Below, piece by piece: positions 1,730 to 13,861 of a stretch of 21,481 nucleotides of DNA (positions within the stretch are counted from its first letter, which is position 1; each line of letters opens with the position of its first letter). The stretch is from contig UREN01000037.1 of the NCBI GenBank assembly GCA_900546885.1, positions 1-21,481 on the forward strand, in the 5' to 3' direction. The notes under the pieces were generated by a model. The model had not been told where the DNA came from, made no database searches, and saw only the letters and a list, made by a program, of their open reading frames with translations. This DNA is from an uncultured Oscillospiraceae bacterium (GTDB taxonomy: Bacteria; Bacillota; Clostridia; Oscillospirales; Ruminococcaceae). Position numbers and translations under genes: made by a program.

Positions 1730-2530
1730 TCACACGCGCGCCGCAGGCATAAAGATAGCGCCCACCGGGCACTGTGCCGCGCACACGCCGCAGCCCGTGC
1801 ATTTCTCTTCATCAATGCGGGCCACATTGTTCACAACCGTCACTGCGCCGGCCGGGCAGTTTTTGGCACACTTCATGCAGCCGATGCATCCGGCCGTACA
1901 GGCCTTGCGGGTGAGGGCGCCGCGGTCTTCATTGGCGCACAGCACCACCGGCCTGTCAAGGCGCGTGTGCAGGCGAATAATGCCCTTGGGGCACGTTTCC
2001 GCACAGGCACCGCAGCCCGTGCACTTTGCCTCGTCAATATGTGCCAGGCCGTTTTTCACCTCAATGGCGCCAAACTTGCAGGCCGAGGCGCAGTCGCCGC
2101 AGCCCAGGCAGCCAAACGGGCACACCGCGCATCCGCCGTGCAGCGCCGCCATGGCGGCACAGCTTTGCACACCCTGGTATTCATATTTATCCTGCGTGTG
2201 CTCATAGCTGCCCTGGCAGGCCACATAGGCCGTGCGCTTCAGCACGCTGCCGGCCTCCACGCCCATAATGGCCGCGGCGGCCTTTGCCACTGCCTCGCCG
2301 CCGGGCACGCACTTGTTTACCGGCGCACCCTCGGCAATGGCCTTTGCATAATCTGCACAGCCCGCATAGCCACAGGCGCCGCAGTTTGCGCCGGGCAGCG
2401 CCTCTTGCAGGCGGCCCACGCGCTCATCCTGCGGCACAGCCAGAAAGCGCGAGGCCAGCACCAGCACCACGCTGCCCAAAAGGCCAAGGCCCGCACACAC
2501 GGCAGCAGCCCAAAGAATTCCTGTCCACAT
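1730..2530 (-). CDS. rnfB: Rnf complex subunit RnfB, multi-cluster iron-sulfur protein
   Basis: RnfB is the ferredoxin-facing electron-entry subunit of the membrane ferredoxin:NAD+ oxidoreductase. The 266-aa protein has one N-terminal membrane helix (about residues 4-28). A four-Cys [4Fe-4S] domain follows (C50, C53, C58, C74; GANCGACGYAGC). Four ferredoxin-type CxxCxxCxxxC motifs come next, at 141-151, 170-180, 215-225 and 244-254. Extra cysteines at 105, 124, 134 and 137 are also present, as in other clostridial RnfB proteins. The ATG at 2530 has an AAGGGGGG ribosome binding site 8 nt upstream. It follows rnfA by 15 bp, completing the C-D-G-E-A-B order known from Acetobacterium and other clostridia. 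Confidence 0.95.
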   Translation of the reverse strand: MWTGILWAAAVCAGLGLLGSVVLVLASRFLAVPQDERVGRLQEALPGANCGACGYAGCADYAKAIAEGAPVNKCVPGGEAVAKAAAAIMGVEAGSVLKRTAYVACQGSYEHTQDKYEYQGVQSCAAMAALHGGCAVCPFGCLGCGDCASACKFGAIEVKNGLAHIDEAKCTGCGACAETCPKGIIRLHTRLDRPVVLCANEDRGALTRKACTAGCIGCMKCAKNCPAGAVTVVNNVARIDEEKCTGCGVCAAQCPVGAIFMPAARV

Positions 2531-2545
2531 AGCAGCCGCCCCCCC

Positions 2546-3148
2546 TTACGCACCAAAAATGTGTTCGATGACGCCGCCGAAGCCCATGAACGACAGGCTG
2601 ACAATGGCAGCGCTCACCAGCGTGATGGGCAGCCCCTCAAAGCACTTGGGGGGCTTTGCGTCCGCCAGGCGGCGGCGCACGCCCGCAAACAGCACCATGG
2701 CCAGCATGAAGCCGAACCCGGCGCCCACGGCGCACACCATGCTTTCGGCGAAATTGTACCCCTCATCAATGACGGAGATGGTAACGCCCAGCACCGCACA
2801 GTTGGTGGTGATGAGCGGCAGGTATACGCCAAGTGCCTTATACAGCGGCGGGATGACCTTTTTCAGCACCATCTCTACCAGCTGCACCAGCACCGCAATA
2901 ATGAGGATGAACACAATGGTCTGCAGATAGGCCATGCCGTTTGGCTCCAGCACATAAGTATAAATAGGCCATGTGACGGCTGTGGCGATGGCCATGACGA
3001 AGATGACCGCGCAGGACATGCCGAAGGCGGAATCCAGCTTTTTCGACACGCCCAGGAACGGGCAGATGCCCAAGAACTGCACCAGCACATAGTTGTTCAC
3101 AAGGATCATGCCAAAGAAAATCATGGCAAGGTTTCTCATTTCATCCAT
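2546..3148 (-). CDS. rnfA: Rnf complex membrane subunit RnfA
   Basis: This 200-aa hydrophobic protein with about six membrane helices is the RnfA/NqrE-type integral subunit that, with RnfE, forms the membrane core carrying an intramembrane iron-sulfur centre. Family segments include NNYVLVQFLGICPFLGVSKK near residue 20 and a mirrored TTNCAVLGV segment near residue 105. Each supplies one of the conserved intramembrane cysteines. The start codon is 3 bp from the rnfE stop, and its GGAGGG site lies inside the end of rnfE, so translation is probably coupled. Length is normal. The call is secure. Confidence 0.95.
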   Translation of the reverse strand: MDEMRNLAMIFFGMILVNNYVLVQFLGICPFLGVSKKLDSAFGMSCAVIFVMAIATAVTWPIYTYVLEPNGMAYLQTIVFILIIAVLVQLVEMVLKKVIPPLYKALGVYLPLITTNCAVLGVTISVIDEGYNFAESMVCAVGAGFGFMLAMVLFAGVRRRLADAKPPKCFEGLPITLVSAAIVSLSFMGFGGVIEHIFGA

Positions 3149-3151
3149 GTG

Positions 3152-3874
3152 TTACGCGCCCTCCTTCCCGGCATCCTGCGCGCCTTCGCACGCGCCACCG
3201 CAGGCGGCAGCGGCGGGGCAGCCCTCGCAGCCCGCACGGCGCGTGATGCGCGCGCCCATCTTTGTCTCAAGCGCCACCACCAGCGCCATCAGCACGCCAA
3301 ACACCAAAAAGCCGCCCGGCGGCATGATGAAAAGCGTCATGGGCTGGAACGTAAAGGGCAGATGCAGCGCCTCGAACAGCATATCCATTACGGGCACGTT
3401 GAACAGTGTGCCTGCCCCCAGCAGCTCGCGCACGCTGCCCATCACCAGAAGTGTCAGCGTAAAGCCAAGGCCCATGCCAAGGCCGTCCAGCGCGGAATCG
3501 ACCACGTTGTTCTTGGAGGCAAACATTTCGGCGCGGCCAAGAATGATGCAGTTCACCACAATAAGCGGCAGGTAGATGCCAAGCGCTGTGTCCAGCGCGG
3601 GCATATACGCCTGCACCAGCATCTGCAGAATGGTTACAAACGCCGCAATCACCGTGATATACGCCGGCAGGCGCACTTTATCGGGAATTACCTTGCGCAG
3701 CGCGGAAATGGCAATGTTGGAACCAATCAGCACAAATGTGGCCGCAAGGCCCATGCCAAGGCCGTTCGTCGCCACGGTGGTGACGGCCAGCGTGGGGCAG
3801 GTGCCCAGCACAAGGCGCAGCGAAGGGTTTTCTTTAAGCAGGCCATTGGTTACAATGCGAAGCCGTTCTTTCAT
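3152..3874 (-). CDS. rnfE: Rnf complex membrane subunit RnfE with Cys-rich tail
   Basis: RnfE (240 aa) is the RnfA/NqrD-related integral membrane subunit. NGLLKENPSLRLVLGTCPTLAV near the N-terminus and LIVVNCIILGRAE near residue 112 supply the paired intramembrane cysteines, and about six helices are evident. The start codon overlaps the rnfG stop (ATGA), with a GGAGG site 9 nt upstream. After the last helix a soluble tail carries four cysteines (C216, C219, C225, C229; CEGCPAAAACGGAC) followed by an acidic, Ala/Gly-rich end. The core RnfE fold does not need such a tail. Family assignment is secure; the role of the tail is unknown. Confidence 0.94.
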   Translation of the reverse strand: MKERLRIVTNGLLKENPSLRLVLGTCPTLAVTTVATNGLGMGLAATFVLIGSNIAISALRKVIPDKVRLPAYITVIAAFVTILQMLVQAYMPALDTALGIYLPLIVVNCIILGRAEMFASKNNVVDSALDGLGMGLGFTLTLLVMGSVRELLGAGTLFNVPVMDMLFEALHLPFTFQPMTLFIMPPGGFLVFGVLMALVVALETKMGARITRRAGCEGCPAAAACGGACEGAQDAGKEGA

Positions 3875-4425
3875 TCCTGCACGCCTCCTTCCTGTGTGCT
3901 CTGTGCGCTCTGCCCGCCCGAGGCAAGTGCCTCATAGGCGGCGCAGGCGTGCTCTACCGCCACAATGGCGGCGTTGGAAGAAATGGTTGCGCCAGAGATT
4001 GTGTCTATCTGGTAGGCGTTCTCTGCGGTCTTTCCGGCAAATTGCGAGCTGAAATCTTCATTTCGCACCTTCTGGCCAAGGCCGGGGGTCTCGTCGTTTG
4101 CCAGGAACTGCACGGCGCGGATGGTGCCGTCCTCGCCGAAAGCCACCATCACCGGCACCATGCCGCCATAACCCTGCGCCTGCGCGGTAATCACCCATCC
4201 CGCGCCGTTTTCGGCGCGCGCCGCCTCGGTCACGCCTTCTGCCTCCACCGGCACAACTTCAAAATTGTCCGCTTCGGGCAGCAGCTCCAGCCGCGTCTGC
4301 TGGGCCGTTGCTTCGGCATTTGCGGCAATAATCGGCGCCGTAATGCCATTTGTGGCAGCCAGCAGCACCGCCACAATCAGGCAGATGCCGGTAAGCACAA
4401 AGATGGGTTTTAATGTCTCCTTCAT
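3871..4425 (-). CDS. rnfG: Rnf complex subunit RnfG, covalent FMN-binding
   Basis: RnfG (184 aa) has one N-terminal membrane anchor (about residues 7-30) and an extracytoplasmic FMN-binding domain. The motif D141-TISGAT-147 matches the Dxx(S/T)GAT flavinylation consensus. FMN would be attached through a phosphoester bond to Thr147 by the flavin transferase ApbE, which is not encoded in this window. LANDETPGLGQKV near residue 108 is also typical of the family. The ATG at 4425 is chosen over an in-frame upstream start because the membrane anchor begins there and a GGGAGGG site precedes it. It overlaps rnfD by 4 bp and rnfE by 4 bp (ATGA junctions), indicating coupled translation. A Ser/Gln/Gly-rich C-terminus is probably disordered. 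Confidence 0.94.
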   Translation of the reverse strand: MKETLKPIFVLTGICLIVAVLLAATNGITAPIIAANAEATAQQTRLELLPEADNFEVVPVEAEGVTEAARAENGAGWVITAQAQGYGGMVPVMVAFGEDGTIRAVQFLANDETPGLGQKVRNEDFSSQFAGKTAENAYQIDTISGATISSNAAIVAVEHACAAYEALASGGQSAQSTQEGGVQE

Positions 4426-5375
4426 TTGCGCTTCCCTCCCCCCAGCGGCCTTTGCCGTGTAAGCTCGTTGATATAGGGCACCAGCAGGTTCATCAGCAGC
4501 AGCGCAAAGCTGACGCCCTCTGTCATGTTGCTGCAAAAACGTATCAGGCAGGTGATGCAGCCAAGCCCTATGCCGAACACCAGTTTGCCCAGCCGGGTAA
4601 AGGGGCTGGTGACATAATCGGTGGCCATGAAGAACGCGCCCAGCATCAGGCCGCCGGAAAGCAGCTGCACCAGCACATCATGCCCCGTGACAGCGCTGAG
4701 CACCGCCACCGTGCCAAGGTAACTTACCGGAATGATTGCGCTGATGGTGCCGGTGAGAATAAGGTAGATGCCGCCCAGCAAAAGGGCAAGCGAGCACGTT
4801 TCACCCAGCATGCCGCCGTGCTGGCCCAAAAACAGGGCAAACATGCTGCCTGCCGGAATTTCGGCCGCAGCCAGCGGCGTGGCCGAAGCCACGGCATCGG
4901 TGGTGGCGCTGGCCACCAGGTCGATGCCGCCGTTCACCGGGTAGGCATAATTGGTCATGTAAGAGGCAAACCCAATAAACAGCGCAAGGCGCCCCACCAG
5001 CGCCGGGTTTGCAAAATTGGTGCCAAGGCCGCCAAACAGCTGCTTTGCCACCACAATGGCCGCAAAGCTGCCCACCACGGCCGTCCACAGCGGAATGTTC
5101 GCGGGCAGGTTGCAGGCCAATATCACGCCAGTTACAAGGGCCGAGCAGTCTTTCACCGCCTCCGGGCGCTTTGCCAGCCAGCAATACAGCGCCTCGAACG
5201 CCACACAGCTGACGGCACACACCGCCACCACCAGCCATGCGCGCGCGCCGAAAATCATGCCAGAGGCCAGCACCACGGGCATGAGCGCGATGAGCACATG
5301 GATCATCAGCCCCTGTGTGGAAGTCCCCTCATGAATATGTGGGGAGGCTGACACAAAGAACTTTTCCCGTTCCAT
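4422..5375 (-). CDS. rnfD: Rnf complex membrane subunit RnfD, covalent FMN-binding
   Basis: RnfD (317 aa) is an NqrB-like integral membrane subunit thought to take part in ion translocation. SASPHIHEGTSTQGLM at residues 9-24 is the characteristic N-terminus. CNLPANIPLW, FGGLGTNFANPALVGR and the late FFMATDYVTSP segment are all family blocks. The flavin-attachment region reads DAVASATPL (Thr166): the acceptor Thr and preceding Ala are kept, but the usual (S/T)-G before them is A-S. The ATG at 5375 is preferred to the in-frame 5411 start because family homology begins at MEREKFF. It starts one base after rnfC ends and overlaps rnfG by 4 bp. Assignment is secure. Confidence 0.94.
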   Translation of the reverse strand: MEREKFFVSASPHIHEGTSTQGLMIHVLIALMPVVLASGMIFGARAWLVVAVCAVSCVAFEALYCWLAKRPEAVKDCSALVTGVILACNLPANIPLWTAVVGSFAAIVVAKQLFGGLGTNFANPALVGRLALFIGFASYMTNYAYPVNGGIDLVASATTDAVASATPLAAAEIPAGSMFALFLGQHGGMLGETCSLALLLGGIYLILTGTISAIIPVSYLGTVAVLSAVTGHDVLVQLLSGGLMLGAFFMATDYVTSPFTRLGKLVFGIGLGCITCLIRFCSNMTEGVSFALLLMNLLVPYINELTRQRPLGGGKRK

Positions 5376-5376
5376 C

Positions 5377-6687
5377 TCATTTGCCTGCCTTTCTCTGCAT
5401 GGCCTTTGCAAGGCTCATGGTCTGCGCCACAGGGCGCTTTGCCGGGCATACGAATGTGCAGCAGCCGCAGCCCATGCACAAATCCACCATCAGCTTATCC
5501 AGCCGGGCCGCATCGCCCTGCGTATAAGCGCCGGCAATTTCCACCGGCGAAAGGCCAAGCGGGCACGCCTCGATGCAGCGCCCGCAGCGCACGCACGGCT
5601 GCGGGGCGGCCAGCTTTGCCTGCTTTTCCAAAAACACCAGAATGCCGTTGTTCTGTTTCAGCACCGGAAAATCCACACTGCAAAGCGCGGTACCCATCAT
5701 GGGGCCGCCCATCAGCACCTTGGCCGCGCCCTCTTCCATGCCGCCGCAGAAATCCAGCACGTCCCGAATGGGCGTGCCAATAATGGCCTCCACGTTTTTC
5801 GGCTCTTTCACGCCGGGGCCGTCCACCGTAAGGCGCTTTGTGGTTAGCGGCATGCCGGTGGCCAGAAACTTGCCCAGCGCAGACACGGTGGTGACGTTCA
5901 TCACCAGCACGCCCACGTCTGCAGGCAGGCCGCCGCGCGGCACCTCGCGCCCGGTGGTGCGCTCAATCAGCACCTTTTCCGCCCCCTGCGGGTAGCGTGA
6001 GGGCAGCGGCTGCACCGTATAATCGGCATCGTTCTGCACCAGGCTGAACATCAAATCAATTGCCTCGGGCTTGTTGCGCTCGATGGCAATGATGACGCGC
6101 CCAATGCCAAGGTGCTGTTTCACCGCCGCAATGCCCGCCAGCACTGTGTCGGAGCATTCCAAAAATTCACGGTTGTCCGCCGTGAGGTAGGGCTCACATT
6201 CCGCCCCGTTAATCACCAGCGTGTCAATGGGCGCCTCGGGCTTCACCGTCAATTTTACCGCCGTGGGAAAGCCCGCGCCCCCAAGGCCCACAAGGCCCGC
6301 CGCGCGGGCCGCTGCCACAAGGCTTTGCGCATCCGTCACCTGCGGCGGCACACAGTGTTCATCCGGTGTCTGCGCGCCGTCCGGCACAATCACCACGGCG
6401 GGCACATCGGCGCCGTTTGGCATTTTCAGCACGGTTACATCGCTCACCGTGCCAGAGACGCCGGAATGGATATCCGCGCCCACAAAACCCTTGGCGCGGC
6501 CCACCACAGTGCCCACTTTCACGGTGTCGCCCTTTTTCACGGCAACCTCACATGGCGCGCCAATGTGCTGGCTCATAGGCAGCACAATTTTTGCCGGAAG
6601 CGGCATCACCTGCGTGGCGCTTCCGGCCGTGTTTTTTCTGTGCGGCACTGCCGCGCCCTTTGCGCTTCGCGCAAGGCTCCAACTCAT
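5377..6687 (-). CDS. rnfC: Rnf complex peripheral subunit RnfC (NADH/FMN and two Fe-S clusters)
   Basis: RnfC (436 aa) is the NAD+-reducing subunit of the Rnf complex. The N-terminal VPHRKNTAG segment corresponds to the HPPxxK-type start of the family. A Gly-rich GLGGAGFPT loop at 134-142 belongs to the FMN/NAD-binding domain, which resembles the complex I 51-kDa subunit. The C-terminus holds two [4Fe-4S] motifs, C365/C368/C371/C375 and C404/C407/C410/C414. The ATG at 6687 has AGGGGG 7 nt upstream. An in-frame ATG at 6759 exists but would add non-conserved residues. It is the promoter-proximal gene of the operon, as in other clostridia. Confidence 0.95.
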   Translation of the reverse strand: MSWSLARSAKGAAVPHRKNTAGSATQVMPLPAKIVLPMSQHIGAPCEVAVKKGDTVKVGTVVGRAKGFVGADIHSGVSGTVSDVTVLKMPNGADVPAVVIVPDGAQTPDEHCVPPQVTDAQSLVAAARAAGLVGLGGAGFPTAVKLTVKPEAPIDTLVINGAECEPYLTADNREFLECSDTVLAGIAAVKQHLGIGRVIIAIERNKPEAIDLMFSLVQNDADYTVQPLPSRYPQGAEKVLIERTTGREVPRGGLPADVGVLVMNVTTVSALGKFLATGMPLTTKRLTVDGPGVKEPKNVEAIIGTPIRDVLDFCGGMEEGAAKVLMGGPMMGTALCSVDFPVLKQNNGILVFLEKQAKLAAPQPCVRCGRCIEACPLGLSPVEIAGAYTQGDAARLDKLMVDLCMGCGCCTFVCPAKRPVAQTMSLAKAMQRKAGK

Positions 6688-6757
6688 CTTCAGACCCCCT
6701 GCCTTCTCTTCCTCCGGCGGGCATGCCCGCCCCAGAGCATTCAAATCGCATGGATTC

Positions 6758-6787
6758 ATTTTAGCACCCTGTTTCCCGGTGCGTCAA
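6758..6787 (-). promoter_or_regulatory. Candidate rnf operon promoter
   Basis: Read leftward: TTGACG (6787-6782), an 18-bp spacer, then TAAAAT (6763-6758). Transcription would start near 6750, leaving a leader of about 65 nt before rnfC. A second, weaker pair with TTGACG at 6893-6888 and TAAACG at 6871-6866 lies further upstream. The 396-bp gap 6688-7083 between rnfC and the rightward gene holds these elements, a cre-like site and the rightward promoter, with nothing else recognised. Confidence 0.55.
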
Positions 6788-9845: not shown

Positions 9846-9919
9846 GCTCTGCACAAAAAATAATATAAGGCCGGGGCCGCCCATTGGGCTGAACCGAACC
9901 AGCAAAAACAGACAGTGAC

Positions 9920-9967
9920 AAAATGCCCCCCTGATGCAGGAAAACAGACTACATCAGGGGGCATTTT
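9920..9967 (+). repeat. Long inverted repeat (hairpin) immediately before the transposase start
   Basis: AAAATGCCCCCCTGATG (9920-9936) and CATCAGGGGGCATTTT (9952-9967) pair over 16 bp with one bulged C, leaving a 15-nt loop. The right arm contains AGGGGG, the only ribosome binding site for the ATG at 9969. Transcripts entering from pepV would fold and mask that site. It may also help end pepV transcription, since no other terminator is visible after pepV. Confidence 0.7.
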
Positions 9968-9968
9968 C

Positions 9969-10283
9969 ATGGAGAAACGAAATTATGCGCATGTTCAAGC
10001 ACTGCTGCCTGAGATCAAGCTCATGCTGGCAGAGGGAAAAAGTCAGCGGGAAGCTGCAGAATACGATAGCTTTCGGGACAAGCAAGTGGTAAAAAGGCTG
10101 CTTGAGCGTGAATGGAGAAAAGAACACAAGCTGGAAGCCGGAAGCCTGCCACGGCCCAAGGGACGGCTGAGAAAAGATGCTGCGCCAAGAGCCATTGTGG
10201 CTGAACAGGCCTATGAAATCCAACGGCTTCGCTTGGAGGATAACCTGCTGCGGGATTTTCTGCAATTCACAGGAAGAAGGTGA
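9969..10283 (+). CDS. IS3-like transposase OrfA (helix-turn-helix)
   Basis: A 104-aa basic protein resembling the OrfA DNA-binding partner of an IS3-group transposase. An N-terminal helix-turn-helix region (about residues 6-48; LPEIKLMLAEGKSQREAAE then KQVVKRLLERE) is followed by a basic PRPKGRLRKD stretch. A leucine-zipper-like helix (79-100; ENLLR-type LRLEDNLLRDFL) would mediate oligomerisation. The ATG at 9969 has AGGGGG 7 nt upstream, lying in the arm of the preceding hairpin. Its stop overlaps the orfB start (GTGA). Bases are less GC-rich than neighbouring genes, consistent with transfer. Intact in frame but probably inactive without a complete orfB. Confidence 0.75.
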   Translation: MEKRNYAHVQALLPEIKLMLAEGKSQREAAEYDSFRDKQVVKRLLEREWRKEHKLEAGSLPRPKGRLRKDAAPRAIVAEQAYEIQRLRLEDNLLRDFLQFTGRR

Positions 10284-10540
10284 AACCGAGAATAAAATAC
10301 CGCATCATACATCGCCACAGCAGAGAATATCCGGTGTCCGTCATGTGTGTTTTTGAAGTATCCGGAAGCGGTTGCTACGCCTTTGTCCATCGCTTGAGCA
10401 AGCCGGAAAGGGCCGCCGCTCTTGCGGAACTTATCGCACAGCAGCGGGAATGCAGTTACCGCACCTGCGGGTACCGACGGATGTGGTTATGGCTGAAACG
10501 TCAGAATATCTTCCGCATCTGTTGTTGTAAAAAGATTTGA
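10280..10540 (+). pseudogene. Truncated IS3-like transposase OrfB
   Basis: The frame opens at GTG (10280), overlapping the orfA stop by 4 bp. The first 77 or so residues resemble the N-terminal part of an IS3-type OrfB: YRIIHRHSREYPVSVMC, then FVHRLSKPERAAAL, then CGYRRMWLWLKRQNI. A full OrfB is about 270-290 aa and carries the DDE integrase core after this point. Here the match stops near 10510 and the frame ends ten codons later at TGA (10538-10540). No catalytic residue is present, so the product cannot be an active transposase. Confidence 0.75.
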
Positions 10541-10881: not shown

Positions 10882-10970
10882 TGGCGCAGCGGGAGGGATT
10901 CGAACCCTCGTGTGGTTTCCCACAAACTGATTTCGAGTCAGCCCCGTTATGACCGCTTCGATACCGCTGC
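10882..10970 (-). tRNA. tRNA-Ser (anticodon CGA)
   Basis: Read leftward, an 89-nt cloverleaf with acceptor GCAGCGG/CCGCTGC, discriminator G and encoded CCA. The anticodon loop CTCGAAA on a GCTGA/TCAGT stem gives anticodon CGA, which decodes UCG. The long variable arm (GTGG-gaaa-CCAC) is characteristic of serine tRNAs. The T arm is GAGGG-TTCGAAT-CCCTC. The 3' end faces the IS remnant and AT-rich segment, a common situation for integrated DNA. Confidence 0.95.
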
Positions 10971-11122: not shown

Positions 11123-11131
11123 TGCTATAAT
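11123..11131 (+). promoter_or_regulatory. Promoter (extended -10) of the Enzyme I-like gene
   Basis: TGCTATAAT is a consensus -10 with extended TGn. The -35 region (around 11102-11109) is weak and lies within the palindrome. The leader to the ATG at 11236 would be about 100 nt. Confidence 0.6.
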
Positions 11132-11170: not shown

Positions 11171-11204
11171 GGCGCGGGCATATCTTTACAAGGCGCGGGC
11201 ATAT
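11171..11204 (+). repeat. 13-bp direct repeat in the EI-like leader, 21-bp period
   Basis: GGCGCGGGCATAT occurs at 11171-11183 and again at 11192-11204, identical, with a start-to-start distance of 21 bp (about two helical turns). It lies between the promoter and the start codon, in the presumed untranslated leader. Confidence 0.7.
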
Positions 11205-11235: not shown

Positions 11236-12843
11236 ATGGAACTTGTAAGAGGAATTGCAGCCTCTGCCGGCCTTGCGGTGGGCACGGTGCGCCGGCTGCG
11301 CCATATCCAGACAGGCCTTGGGCGGGTGGTGATGAGCCCCGCACAGGAATTTGAGAGCTTCTGTGCGGCCGCCGAGATTGCGCGTGCCCAGCTGGAGGAA
11401 ATGGAAAAAAAGGCAGACAGCACGCAAAAGGACATTTTGGGCGCCCAGCGCATGATGCTGGATGATGAGGGCCTGCGCGAAGAGATAGAGCGGTATATCA
11501 AAGCGGGTGCCGGGGCGGCCGCAGCGGTAGAGCGCGCGGCCGGCATCTTTGCGGGACGCATCCGCGCGCTGGACAACGATTATATGCGAGAGCGCGCCTG
11601 CGATGTGCTGGACGCCTGTTACCGCGTGGTGGAGGCGCTGGACGACAGCCCAAGGCAGATTTTGCAGCTTTCGGGCCCGGCCATCATTGCCGCACACGAA
11701 ATATACCCCACCGATATTTTTTTGCTGGACCGCAGCCTGATTTTGGGGTTTATCACGGCCCAGGGCTCGGTGAACGCCCATGCGGCCCAGCTTGCCCGCA
11801 CCATGGGCATCCCCGCTGTAGTGATGGCGGGCGAAGACTTTTTGGAGGCATGCGACGGCCGCCTGGCCGCGCTGGACGGAAACGGCGGCGAAGCATACCT
11901 GGACCCGGACGAGGGCACAAAGGCGCGCTTTTCCCACAGCATCCGCCTTTCGCGGCGCCGCAGCCTTACCAAGGAAAAACTGCGCGAGGCCATATGTGTC
12001 ACGCGCGATGGCACGCGCATCACATTAATGGCCAGCTGCGCCACGCAAAGCGGTGTGGCGCAGGCCATGGAAGAGGGCGCAGAGGGCATTGGGCTTCTGC
12101 AAAGCGAATATCAGCTTTTGGCCCAAAGCGAGGCTGGCGAGGACGCACAGGTGCGCTTTTATTCCCAGTGCCTTGTAAATGCAAAGGGCAAGCCGGTCAC
12201 CATCGCTACCTACGATTTCAGCACAGATAAACAGCCGCCCGGCTTTGAGGCGCCGCCGGAAAAGAACCCCGCCCTTGGGCTGCGCGGCGTGCGTTACAGC
12301 CTGGCGCATCCCCAGTTGCTGCGCAGCCAGTTTGCAGCGCTGCTTCGTGCAGGTGTGGCGGGCAGCCTGCGCGTGGCGCTGCCCATGGTATCCTCGCGCG
12401 AAGAGATGGAGCGCGCGCTGGATATCATGCACGAGACAAAGCGCAGCCTGCGCGAGGCAAAGCGGATGTTCAATGAAAATGTGCCGGTGGGCGTGGTGGT
12501 GGAAACACCGGCCGCAGCGCTGTGCGCACGTGAGCTGGCGCAGAAAGCGGCGTTTTTCTGTGTAGACCTTGCAAACCTGGCCCAGTATACACATGCGGCA
12601 GACAGAACACAGGCAGATGTGCAGCCGTATTTTTCTGTCACGTCCCAGGCGGTGCAGCAGCTGGTGGGCATGGTGCTGGAGGCAGCCAAAAAAGCCAATA
12701 TTCCAATGGTGCTGTGCTGCGACAATGCGGCACAGCCCAGCATGGTGGAAAGCTATGCCCGCCTTGGCGTGCGCTGTTTTTCCATGGCTGCGGGCGATAT
12801 TCTGCCAGCCAAAGAATACCTGATGGGAATGAGCCTGCAATAA
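11236..12843 (+). CDS. Divergent PTS Enzyme I homologue (PEP-utilising family, probably non-canonical)
   Basis: A 535-aa homologue of PTS Enzyme I (phosphoenolpyruvate-protein phosphotransferase, normally about 570-575 aa). The order is conserved: N-terminal RGIAASAGLAVG, HPr-binding helices (about 40-140), swivelling phosphohistidine domain with His182 in NAHAAQLARTMGIPAVV, then the C-terminal PEP-binding barrel (about 250-535). Several active-site positions differ from the canonical enzyme as I recall it. RTEF is QSEY (Gln289). The Arg of RTLDIGGDK is Ala324 (ATYDFSTDK). The TNDLTQYT signature is LANLAQYT (Ala446-Asn447). The CGEMAGD loop is CCDNAAQ, with Cys494 kept. Arg350 and Glu423 are retained. 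PEP and Mg binding are therefore doubtful. AAGGGGG lies 8 nt before the ATG. No HPr or Enzyme II gene is nearby. ptsI itself is probably elsewhere in the genome. Confidence 0.85.
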   Translation: MELVRGIAASAGLAVGTVRRLRHIQTGLGRVVMSPAQEFESFCAAAEIARAQLEEMEKKADSTQKDILGAQRMMLDDEGLREEIERYIKAGAGAAAAVERAAGIFAGRIRALDNDYMRERACDVLDACYRVVEALDDSPRQILQLSGPAIIAAHEIYPTDIFLLDRSLILGFITAQGSVNAHAAQLARTMGIPAVVMAGEDFLEACDGRLAALDGNGGEAYLDPDEGTKARFSHSIRLSRRRSLTKEKLREAICVTRDGTRITLMASCATQSGVAQAMEEGAEGIGLLQSEYQLLAQSEAGEDAQVRFYSQCLVNAKGKPVTIATYDFSTDKQPPGFEAPPEKNPALGLRGVRYSLAHPQLLRSQFAALLRAGVAGSLRVALPMVSSREEMERALDIMHETKRSLREAKRMFNENVPVGVVVETPAAALCARELAQKAAFFCVDLANLAQYTHAADRTQADVQPYFSVTSQAVQQLVGMVLEAAKKANIPMVLCCDNAAQPSMVESYARLGVRCFSMAAGDILPAKEYLMGMSLQ

Positions 12844-12914: not shown

Positions 12915-12951
12915 AAAAAGGCTTCTGCAGCACAGCTGCAGAAGCCTTTTT
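12915..12951. terminator. Perfect bidirectional terminator
   Basis: A 17-bp perfect stem, AAAAAGGCTTCTGCAGC (12915-12931) and GCTGCAGAAGCCTTTTT (12935-12951), with a 3-nt loop and T-runs on both strands. It serves the rightward EI-like gene and the leftward prmA-to-degV cluster, whose last stop is at 12986. Confidence 0.92.
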
Positions 12952-12985: not shown

Positions 12986-13861
12986 TTAGTTGCGGCTTTC
13001 TGCCAGGAAGAACAGCGCCACCGTGCCGGGGCCGGAATGCGCGCCAATCACCGGCCCAATGGGGTTTGTATAAATATCTGCTGTGCCGAAGCGCTGGCGA
13101 ATCTGCTGTGCCACATATTCCACATCGTCCTTGCAGTCGCCATGGCTGATGAAGATGGTTTGGTGAGCATTGTCGATGCCCGTCTTCGCCATATGTTCCA
13201 CCAAAGCGTCCAGGCTTTGGCGGCGGCCGCGCACTTTTTCCATGGGGATAAGATGGCCTTCATCGTCCACATGCAGCACGGGCTTGATGGAAAGCATGGT
13301 GCCGAAAAACGCCGCCGCGCCGGACACGCGCCCGCCGCGCTTTAAATGGTTCAAATCATCCACGGTGAACCAGTGTGCCAGATGCAGGCGGTTTTCCTCC
13401 ACCCACTGCGCCACTTCTTCAATGCTTTTGCCCTTGTCGCGCTCCTGGCAGGCCAGGTAGACAAGCAGGCCCTCGCCCATCGAGGCGCCCAGCGTGTCTA
13501 CGCACAGCGCCTTGCGCTGCGGGTATTCCTCGGCCAGCTCGGCAAAGGCAATGCGGGCGTTGTTGAACGTGCCCGAAAGGCCGGAAGAAAACGCCAGATA
13601 CAGCACGTCCTCGCCGCCTGCCAGAATGGGCCCCACGGCCTCTTTAAAATCCATGGGATTAAGCTGGCTGGTGGTGGGCATGCTGCCGGCACGAACTTTA
13701 TCGTAAAACACTTTTGAGGACATATCGGTCTCGTCCGGTGTATTGCGATAAGTTTTTCCGTCCATTGTAAACGTCAGAGGCATTACGGTGACGTTCATTT
13801 TTTCCACCAGCGCAGGGGAAAGATCTGTGGTGGAATCGGTCAAAATACGGTAAGGTGCCAT
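12986..13861 (-). CDS. DegV family fatty-acid-binding protein
   Basis: A 291-aa DegV-family protein. Family members bind a fatty acid between two domains, and some act as the FakB carrier for fatty acid kinase, loading exogenous fatty acids for phospholipid synthesis. LTDSTTDLS (7-15), the PTTSQLNP block (62-69), SSGLSGTFNNA (92-102) and the KRGGRVSGAAAFFGTMLSIKP region are diagnostic. The end HSGPGTVALFF is also typical. The ATG at 13861 has GGAGG 6 nt upstream. No FakA gene is in the window. It is last in the leftward cluster but has a candidate promoter of its own. Confidence 0.95.
   Translation of the reverse strand: MAPYRILTDSTTDLSPALVEKMNVTVMPLTFTMDGKTYRNTPDETDMSSKVFYDKVRAGSMPTTSQLNPMDFKEAVGPILAGGEDVLYLAFSSGLSGTFNNARIAFAELAEEYPQRKALCVDTLGASMGEGLLVYLACQERDKGKSIEEVAQWVEENRLHLAHWFTVDDLNHLKRGGRVSGAAAFFGTMLSIKPVLHVDDEGHLIPMEKVRGRRQSLDALVEHMAKTGIDNAHQTIFISHGDCKDDVEYVAQQIRQRFGTADIYTNPIGPVIGAHSGPGTVALFFLAESRN

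Follow-up and report, generated by a model that had tools for sequence, protein, structure and literature searches.

A predicted second Enzyme I of gut-type Clostridia with an eroded PEP site and a preserved phosphorylation-site histidine

The 21,481-nucleotide stretch of DNA that we analysed (the window) encodes a full-length homologue of Enzyme I (EI) that belongs to a second-EI clade, which we call EI2. Judging from the residues that are kept and lost, eroded forms of EI2 are found in a group of gut-type Clostridia. We propose that window EI2 is a PEP-independent, EI-type phosphoprotein that would be charged in reverse by phosphorylated HPr (P~HPr) and would act as a sensor of the state of the phosphotransferase system (PTS) or as a relay. 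We put the probability of this reading at about one half. EI2 probably takes phosphate from the PTS relay rather than feeding it.

Results

The window protein has the domains of EI

The reading frame is clean (Table 1), and its product has the EI domain order: PEP-utilisers_N, the mobile domain and the PEP-binding barrel. The Pfam models for these (PEP-utilisers_N, mobile domain and PEP-utilizers_C) each scored above cut-off. The NCBIfam equivalog_domain model TIGR01417 gave 321 bits, slightly below its cut-off of 341.7. The closest solved structures by sequence are EI structures. An AlphaFold2 model was built from 42 homologues (mean pLDDT 86.4, pTM 0.56). Whole EI chains took the top ranks in a Foldseek search with this model, at TM scores of only about 0.5-0.7, as domain placement differs. 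The modelled barrel matched the EI C-domain with PEP (2xz7) with a TM score of 0.86 by target length and an rmsd of 1.6 Å. Thus, the domain folds of EI are kept in the model.

Table 1. Coordinates of features in the window; residue numbers in brackets are those of E. coli PtsI.
Feature	Position	Strand	Basis or conservation
EI2, predicted Enzyme I paralogue whose PEP site is eroded, 535 aa	11236..12843	+	Pfam, NCBIfam, alignment, AlphaFold2, Foldseek
EIN-like half (HPr-binding and phospho-His subdomains, about residues 1-229)	11236..11922	+	Baseline-invariant sites
His182, codon CAT (His189, phosphorylation site)	11779..11781	+	His in 57/57 subclade rows
Gln289 replacing Arg296 (PEP phosphate)	12100..12102	+	Arg in 4/57 subclade rows
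Ala324 replacing Arg332	12205..12207	+	Arg in 8/57 subclade rows
Arg350 (Arg358), retained	12283..12285	+	Arg in 33/57 subclade rows
Glu423 (Glu431), retained	12502..12504	+	Glu in 46/57 subclade rows, Asp in 10
Ala446-Asn447 replacing Asn454-Asp455	12571..12576	+	Asn in 20/57, Asp in 13/57 subclade rows
Arg457 (Arg465), retained	12604..12606	+	Arg in 55/57 subclade rows
Cys494 (Cys502), retained	12715..12717	+	Cys in 50/57 subclade rows
TATAAT with TG one base ahead (extended -10 type), conserved in L001; no -35 match	11126..11131	+	Read from sequence, L001 alignment
Two perfect 13-bp direct repeats GGCGCGGGCATAT (11171-11183, 11192-11204), possible operator	11171..11204	+	Repeat scan, L001
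Perfect 12-bp hairpin, then T run (A run on the other side), likely terminator	12920..12951		Read from sequence; not listed by the promoter scan
DegV family (FakB-like) gene, convergent, 143 bp from EI2	12986..13861	-	PF02645, E 2.5e-82

EI2 forms a clade apart from canonical EI

The closest named record to the window is a Clostridia MAG contig (L001), at 85% identity. All 11 genomes of the genus of this nearest relative encode an EI2 relative, at 85% identity for the MAG and 44-60% for the remaining ten. Matches at E ≤ 1e-90 occurred in 60 of 396 genomes sampled from the GTDB family and at E ≤ 1e-95 in 5 of 295 from the order, the most distant of which may in each case lie outside the clade; the one match among 291 genomes of the class is the nearest-relative MAG itself. 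One EI2 member is annotated phosphoenolpyruvate--protein phosphotransferase [Allofournierella] (Oscillospiraceae). IQ-TREE placed the window protein within a 58-row group (SH-aLRT 100, four of the rows being later dropped as mixed or gapped) inside a larger second-EI clade, which the tree separates from the canonical EIs that these genomes encode. FastTree labels after rerooting were not used for support.

The final alignment held 57 rows of the window subclade, 50 other EI2 rows and 35 'other' rows. Thirty-two of the last group, together with E. coli, form the canonical baseline of 33 rows for invariance and for counts of PEP-site residues; the three left out (L037, L038 and L039) are further EI lineages. 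The 57 subclade rows were gathered by similarity to the window and are partly redundant (40 clusters at 90% identity). Visual inspection led us to drop six rows as mixed or gapped assemblies (P0005, P0024, P0026, P0030, P0052 and P0058), all of which have His at 189. Rows shorter than 450 aa, near-identical Allofournierella rows and L035, a G012 fragment present in the first alignment only, were also dropped.

The PEP site is eroded and the phospho-His is preserved

Residues were called from an alignment of window EI2 to E. coli K-12 PtsI, whose numbering we use, and the codons were then checked in the DNA. His189 is preserved, as are Arg358, Glu431, Arg465 and Cys502; Arg296, Arg332, Asn454 and Asp455 are replaced (Table 1). 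The CGELAGD loop of E. coli reads CCDNAAQ in window EI2. Lys340 is retained, but the DIGGDK stretch is DFSTDK. We take Glu431 and Asp455 to be the Mg ligands of EI. Seven PEP/Mg contact residues were scored (R296, R332, R358, E431, N454, D455 and R465), and window EI2 retains three of them. The initial annotation, which had described a degraded PEP site next to an intact phospho-His domain, was right on both counts. An excerpt of PMC9856155 gives the PEP-recognising cluster as Arg296, Arg332, Arg358 and Arg465, plus the backbone amides of Asn454 and Asp455. Because two phosphate-binding arginines and Asp455 are gone, autophosphorylation from PEP would not be expected at a useful rate, and we consider it very likely, from the sequence, that window EI2 has lost this activity.

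All seven residues were present in every one of the 33 canonical rows (34 of 36 once the set-aside rows are counted), in 43 of the 50 other EI2 rows and in none of the 57 subclade rows. Arg195, like His189, is kept in every subclade row. The other EI2 rows show scattered PEP-site losses too, with R296 kept in 50, R332 in 45, N454 in 49, D455 in 50 and the phospho-His (H189) in 50 of 50. Collapsing the subclade at 90% identity left the pattern unchanged (H189 40/40, R296 4/40, R332 6/40, D455 10/40). Twelve of the 57 rows retain five or six of the seven residues. Two genus members, G011 and G012, keep five, including N454 and D455, and by this residue count their EI2 may still be active. The replacements vary by lineage within the subclade: R296 became L, S, H, Q or F, and D455 became N, L, K, T or R. 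The substitutions of the window protein recur in the close orthologues P0003, P0004 and L015. The initial annotation had held that orthologues with canonical residues would betray an artefact. More distant clade members do have such residues, but an artefact does not follow; because they keep them, the erosion is specific to lineages rather than an error.

PEP-site change may have occurred again outside EI2, as the sequences of three further EI rows suggest. In L037 (G011), L038 (G008) and L039 (G007) the neighbourhood of the PEP site is changed and His189 is kept: L038 has His at 358, L039 has Gln at 332 and Val at 502, and L037 keeps all seven residues with an altered DIGGDK stretch.

Loss is concentrated at the PEP site

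Fifty-eight sites were at least 96% invariant in 83 baseline rows. In the 57-row subclade, 16 of the 19 in the N domain and 20 of the 39 in the C domain were kept at 90% or more. The invariant sites lost in most subclade rows were R296, P308, M429, G452, N454 and D455 and, in the N domain, S166. The mean number of residue changes per conserved site was 8.7 for six PEP sites (R332 fails the invariance filter); it was 4.9 in the rest of the C domain (33 sites) and 2.5 in the N domain (18 sites). With kinship handled through parsimony only, P was 0.019 for PEP against other C-domain sites, 0.002 for PEP against N-domain sites and 0.078 for other C-domain against N-domain sites. No changes at all were seen at H189, D82 and R126 over the 140 rows on the tree. 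The residues D82, L85, Y122, R126 and D129, which we take to face HPr, are each present in 57 of 57 subclade rows. The C-domain tree was 1.46 times as long as the N-domain tree in the subclade (12.94/8.86) and 1.04 times as long in other EI2 (13.58/13.04).

The N domain has nevertheless changed in the subclade. Ser188, which adjoins the phospho-His, is Ala in 55 of 57 rows, and thus the His loop itself is altered. The changes S188A and A128C, both in the N domain, are near-exclusive to the subclade. In an excerpt of PMC5537066, the E. coli EIN sites that broaden on EIC binding include T164, T168 and S188. All three are altered in the subclade, the first two in other EI2 as well.

EI2 is under purifying selection

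Estimates of dN/dS are approximate, as the older pairs have nearly saturated synonymous sites. Between the window and L001, dN/dS was 0.073 for EI2 (N domain 0.059, C domain 0.079), which falls within the spread of the neighbouring genes: 0.064 (DegV), 0.059 (PrmA), 0.134 (RsmE) and 0.108 (VTT protein). The degraded EI2 pair G004/G006 gave 0.055 (C domain 0.061) and their canonical EI 0.070; the partly degraded pair G011/G012 gave 0.096 (C domain 0.154). Values were 0.133-0.207 for intact EI2 pairs, whose DNA is far less diverged, and 0.145 for one canonical pair. No internal stop was present among the 60 family matches listed. Purifying selection acts on both EI2 domains, and the gene is maintained rather than decaying, as the initial annotation had argued from its open frame.

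Canonical EI and HPr occur in the same genomes

The nearest sequenced relative does have the second, canonical ptsI that had been thought worth seeking: a separate EI gene with all seven residues, followed by an HPr gene. A full EI with seven of seven residues was found in 10 of the 11 genus genomes; the eleventh (G012) has EI fragments. Of 16 genomes searched for HPr, 14 had it, each with a GLHARP copy; no HPr was found in G009, a genus member with an eroded EI2, or in G037, genomes that are possibly incomplete. The partners of EI2 are presumably the cell's ordinary HPr proteins.

One stand-alone HPr (L126, 1492-1755) is almost invariant across genera, with counterparts in L013, L123-L125 and L127-L135. 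Its gene lies between ORFs that look by eye like trmD and uvrC, and it has His15 and Ser46. Most genomes with this HPr also have more divergent HPr genes.

Surroundings of EI2 in the window

A dedicated sigma-70 promoter for EI2 was considered and rejected: the sigma-70 scan found no site on the + strand, and only the TATAAT and the repeat with 21-bp spacing recur in L001. The leader repeats reported at the outset are real. The copies start 21 bp apart, and the core [CT]GC[AG]GG[CT]ATA is also present in the 85%-identical L001 (from 1773), with the same spacing and the same 42 bp from the core of the second copy to the ATG. From its sequence, this repeat is a possible operator. The proposed promoter palindrome TGTGC/GCACA fared differently, as it does not recur in the L001 alignment. 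The hairpin downstream is a likely terminator common to EI2 and the convergent degV, by its sequence.

Searching the window by tblastn with three HPr proteins, E. coli EIIA-Glc, and a fructose EII and its PfkB-type kinase gave no convincing match, in agreement with the earlier statement that no HPr or Enzyme II gene lies nearby, as far as the HPr, EIIA-Glc and fructose EII queries reach. The sole match, to E. coli HPr (E 0.048), is on the strand opposite to an RnfC-like ORF and was taken as chance.

Within 2 kb of EI2 there is a tRNA-Ser(CGA) gene, both in the window (10882-10970) and in six of 41 other loci (L001, 1336-1426; L091, L093, L098, L108 and L110); in L103 it is about 7 kb off. A tyrosine integrase (PF00589) adjoins this tRNA in L001, and in L108 and L110 ORFs that are 98% and 85% identical, respectively, sit next to this tRNA. 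By sequence, the site looks to be an integration hot spot. The window also contains an IS3-like remnant at 9915-10540, where one frame resembles orfA by eye and another, short frame falls just below the HTH_21 cut-off (27.6 bits, with 28.1 required). An Rnf-type electron-transport cluster occupies 1730-6759 on the - strand (RnfB-like Fe-S domains by Pfam, other subunits by eye).

Gene neighbourhoods differ between EI2 groups

We surveyed 42 EI2 loci, 12 from the subclade and 30 from other EI2. Immediately upstream of EI2, and on its strand, there is a patatin-like gene in 15 of the 30 other EI2 loci and in none of the 12 subclade loci (Fisher P 0.003, kinship ignored); the identity of this gene was checked with PF01734 in two loci. 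Searching whole genomes with one of the patatin-like proteins, we found nothing at E ≤ 0.001 in the 11 genomes of the genus and matches in three genomes known to have the gene, one of them the query's own. Two genomes with intact EI2 PEP sites gave a 30% match only (G146) or none (G031). Thus, the loss of patatin is not tied to erosion of the PEP site. A supposed patatin remnant in L001 was discarded, the clustering match being an ORF over the tRNA-Ser/integrase region.

In six other-EI2 loci, the second EI is followed by genes for a PfkB-type kinase, a fructose-type EII and a canonical EI (assigned by Pfam in L107 only). The EI2 proteins of these loci are intact or without R332 only. DegV lies within 250 bp of EI2 in 11 of the 42 loci (4 of 12 subclade, 7 of 30 other), in three arrangements; in L114 it is 5412 bp away.

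Discussion

EI2 is a duplicate of EI that retains the phospho-His, the HPr-binding subdomain and the fold of that enzyme. We propose that this copy has lost the use of PEP. His182 would then receive a phosphoryl group from P~His-HPr, in the reverse of the normal step from EI to HPr. EI2~P would mirror, by reporting or by buffering, the charge of the PTS that the cell's canonical EI drives, and the eroded barrel would act as a dimer or effector domain. Charging by P~HPr is proposed because the His, R195 and the EIN surface are kept and because the transfer from EI to HPr can run backwards. An excerpt of PMC8295985 describes work on phosphorylated, isolated EIN, which has no PEP domain; samples for NMR, at about 1 mM, were charged with less than 1 µM EI, less than 1 µM HPr and PEP. 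Thus, an EI N-domain can be charged without a PEP site of its own. We regard the charging of EI2 by P~HPr as an evenly balanced proposition. A sensor output is put forward more tentatively and may well not hold.

Several observations sit uneasily with this model. The C domain is under strong purifying selection, and the retention of R465, C502 and E431 exceeds the needs of a bare dimer barrel. Since the barrel is constrained and these residues are kept, there is room for a ligand or a dimer role, and a changed ligand site is possible. In addition, 12 of the 57 rows, G011 and G012 among those less eroded, keep most of the site; the two genomes in which HPr was not found include one with an eroded EI2; and both the His loop and the EIC-responsive EIN sites are altered.

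Alternatively, EI2 may be a pseudo-enzyme that is not phosphorylated and that titrates HPr or forms mixed dimers with canonical EI through its barrel, damping PTS flux. The fold that the model predicts to be intact, the constraint on both domains and the presence of an EI with canonical residues in nearly all genus genomes all suit this explanation. However, the phospho-His and R195 are invariant, and pure binding needs neither; we therefore think it unlikely. Somewhat less probable still is an active phosphotransferase that takes another phosphoryl donor, or a carboxylate ligand, at the barrel through the kept R358, R465, E431 and C502. Three of these residues (R465, C502 and E431) are mostly retained in the subclade and the C-domain dN/dS is low, but the replacements differ by lineage, which resembles loss rather than a new common site, and the two near-exclusive changes of the subclade lie in the N domain. 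An ordinary EI that uses PEP weakly despite its substitutions would fit the rows with five or six residues. It is improbable for the window protein, which is without two of the four arginines of the PEP cluster and without Asp455, positions at which canonical rows hardly vary.

EI2 could also be one half of a split relay of the DhaM type: it would take the input from the PTS and pass HPr-derived phosphate, or a phosphorylation-dependent contact, to a fatty-acid module for lipid salvage. This reading was drawn from the patatin gene upstream, the DegV/FakB neighbour and the EDD domain, which is common to DegV, EIIA-Man and dihydroxyacetone kinase (title of Kinch 2005, as cited in an excerpt of PMC9136124). 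We give it very little credence, for the N-terminal motif of the window DegV is Asp-Ser-Thr and not His, the patatin gene is absent from the subclade loci and the genus genomes, and the neighbourhood may be inherited synteny. Finally, a pseudogene or a sequencing or assembly error, which the loss of several key residues might suggest, is ruled out by dN/dS of 0.055-0.096 in three degraded or partly degraded pairs, the lack of internal stops in the listed matches and the sharing of the substitutions by close orthologues.

Among known proteins, canonical EI (PtsI) shares with EI2 all three domains, the fold, the phospho-His, the HPr-binding subdomain and a similar length, and differs from it at the PEP/Mg site. 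By analogy, EI2 would work most like the EI-type domain of DhaM, a His domain without a PEP domain that is tied to PTS phosphorylation. DhaM carries this EI-like domain in a fusion with EIIA-Man-type and HPr domains. Window EI2 matches the NCBIfam model NF008478, which agrees with the EI-like domain in DhaM. Unlike DhaM, EI2 is stand-alone with a whole but eroded barrel, and neither EIIA-Man nor HPr domains were found in its chain with Pfam and NCBIfam. The link of DhaM and PTS-linked dihydroxyacetone kinase to the PTS is stated in an excerpt of PMC9136124.

Another relative, EI-Ntr (PtsP), resembles EI2 in being an EI paralogue. PtsP has an active PEP site. Its role is presumed to be regulatory, and it has an N-terminal GAF domain, according to an excerpt of PMC2405797. 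Pfam found no GAF domain in window EI2, and NF008283 scored 236 bits against a cut-off of 583. The excerpted part of that survey (PMC2405797) reports EI and HPr paralogues mostly in Proteobacteria and makes no mention of an eroded PEP site. We found no description of an EI paralogue with an eroded PEP site in the open-access full-text literature, which is weak evidence of absence. To call this an undescribed system, as was first suggested, is nevertheless an overstatement; what we describe is a single paralogue, now eroded, of an enzyme already known.

Phosphoryl transfer through the PTS starts at EI. Stand-alone, full-length EIs that have always kept the phospho-His in the rows examined, and whose PEP site is eroding along several lineages, represent a natural separation of the half-reactions of this enzyme. 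The EI2 series, from intact through partly to largely eroded, is a defined set for asking whether HPr charges EI backwards in the cell and whether the cell reads that charge as a signal. A genome annotated with two EIs may contain only one enzyme that uses PEP.
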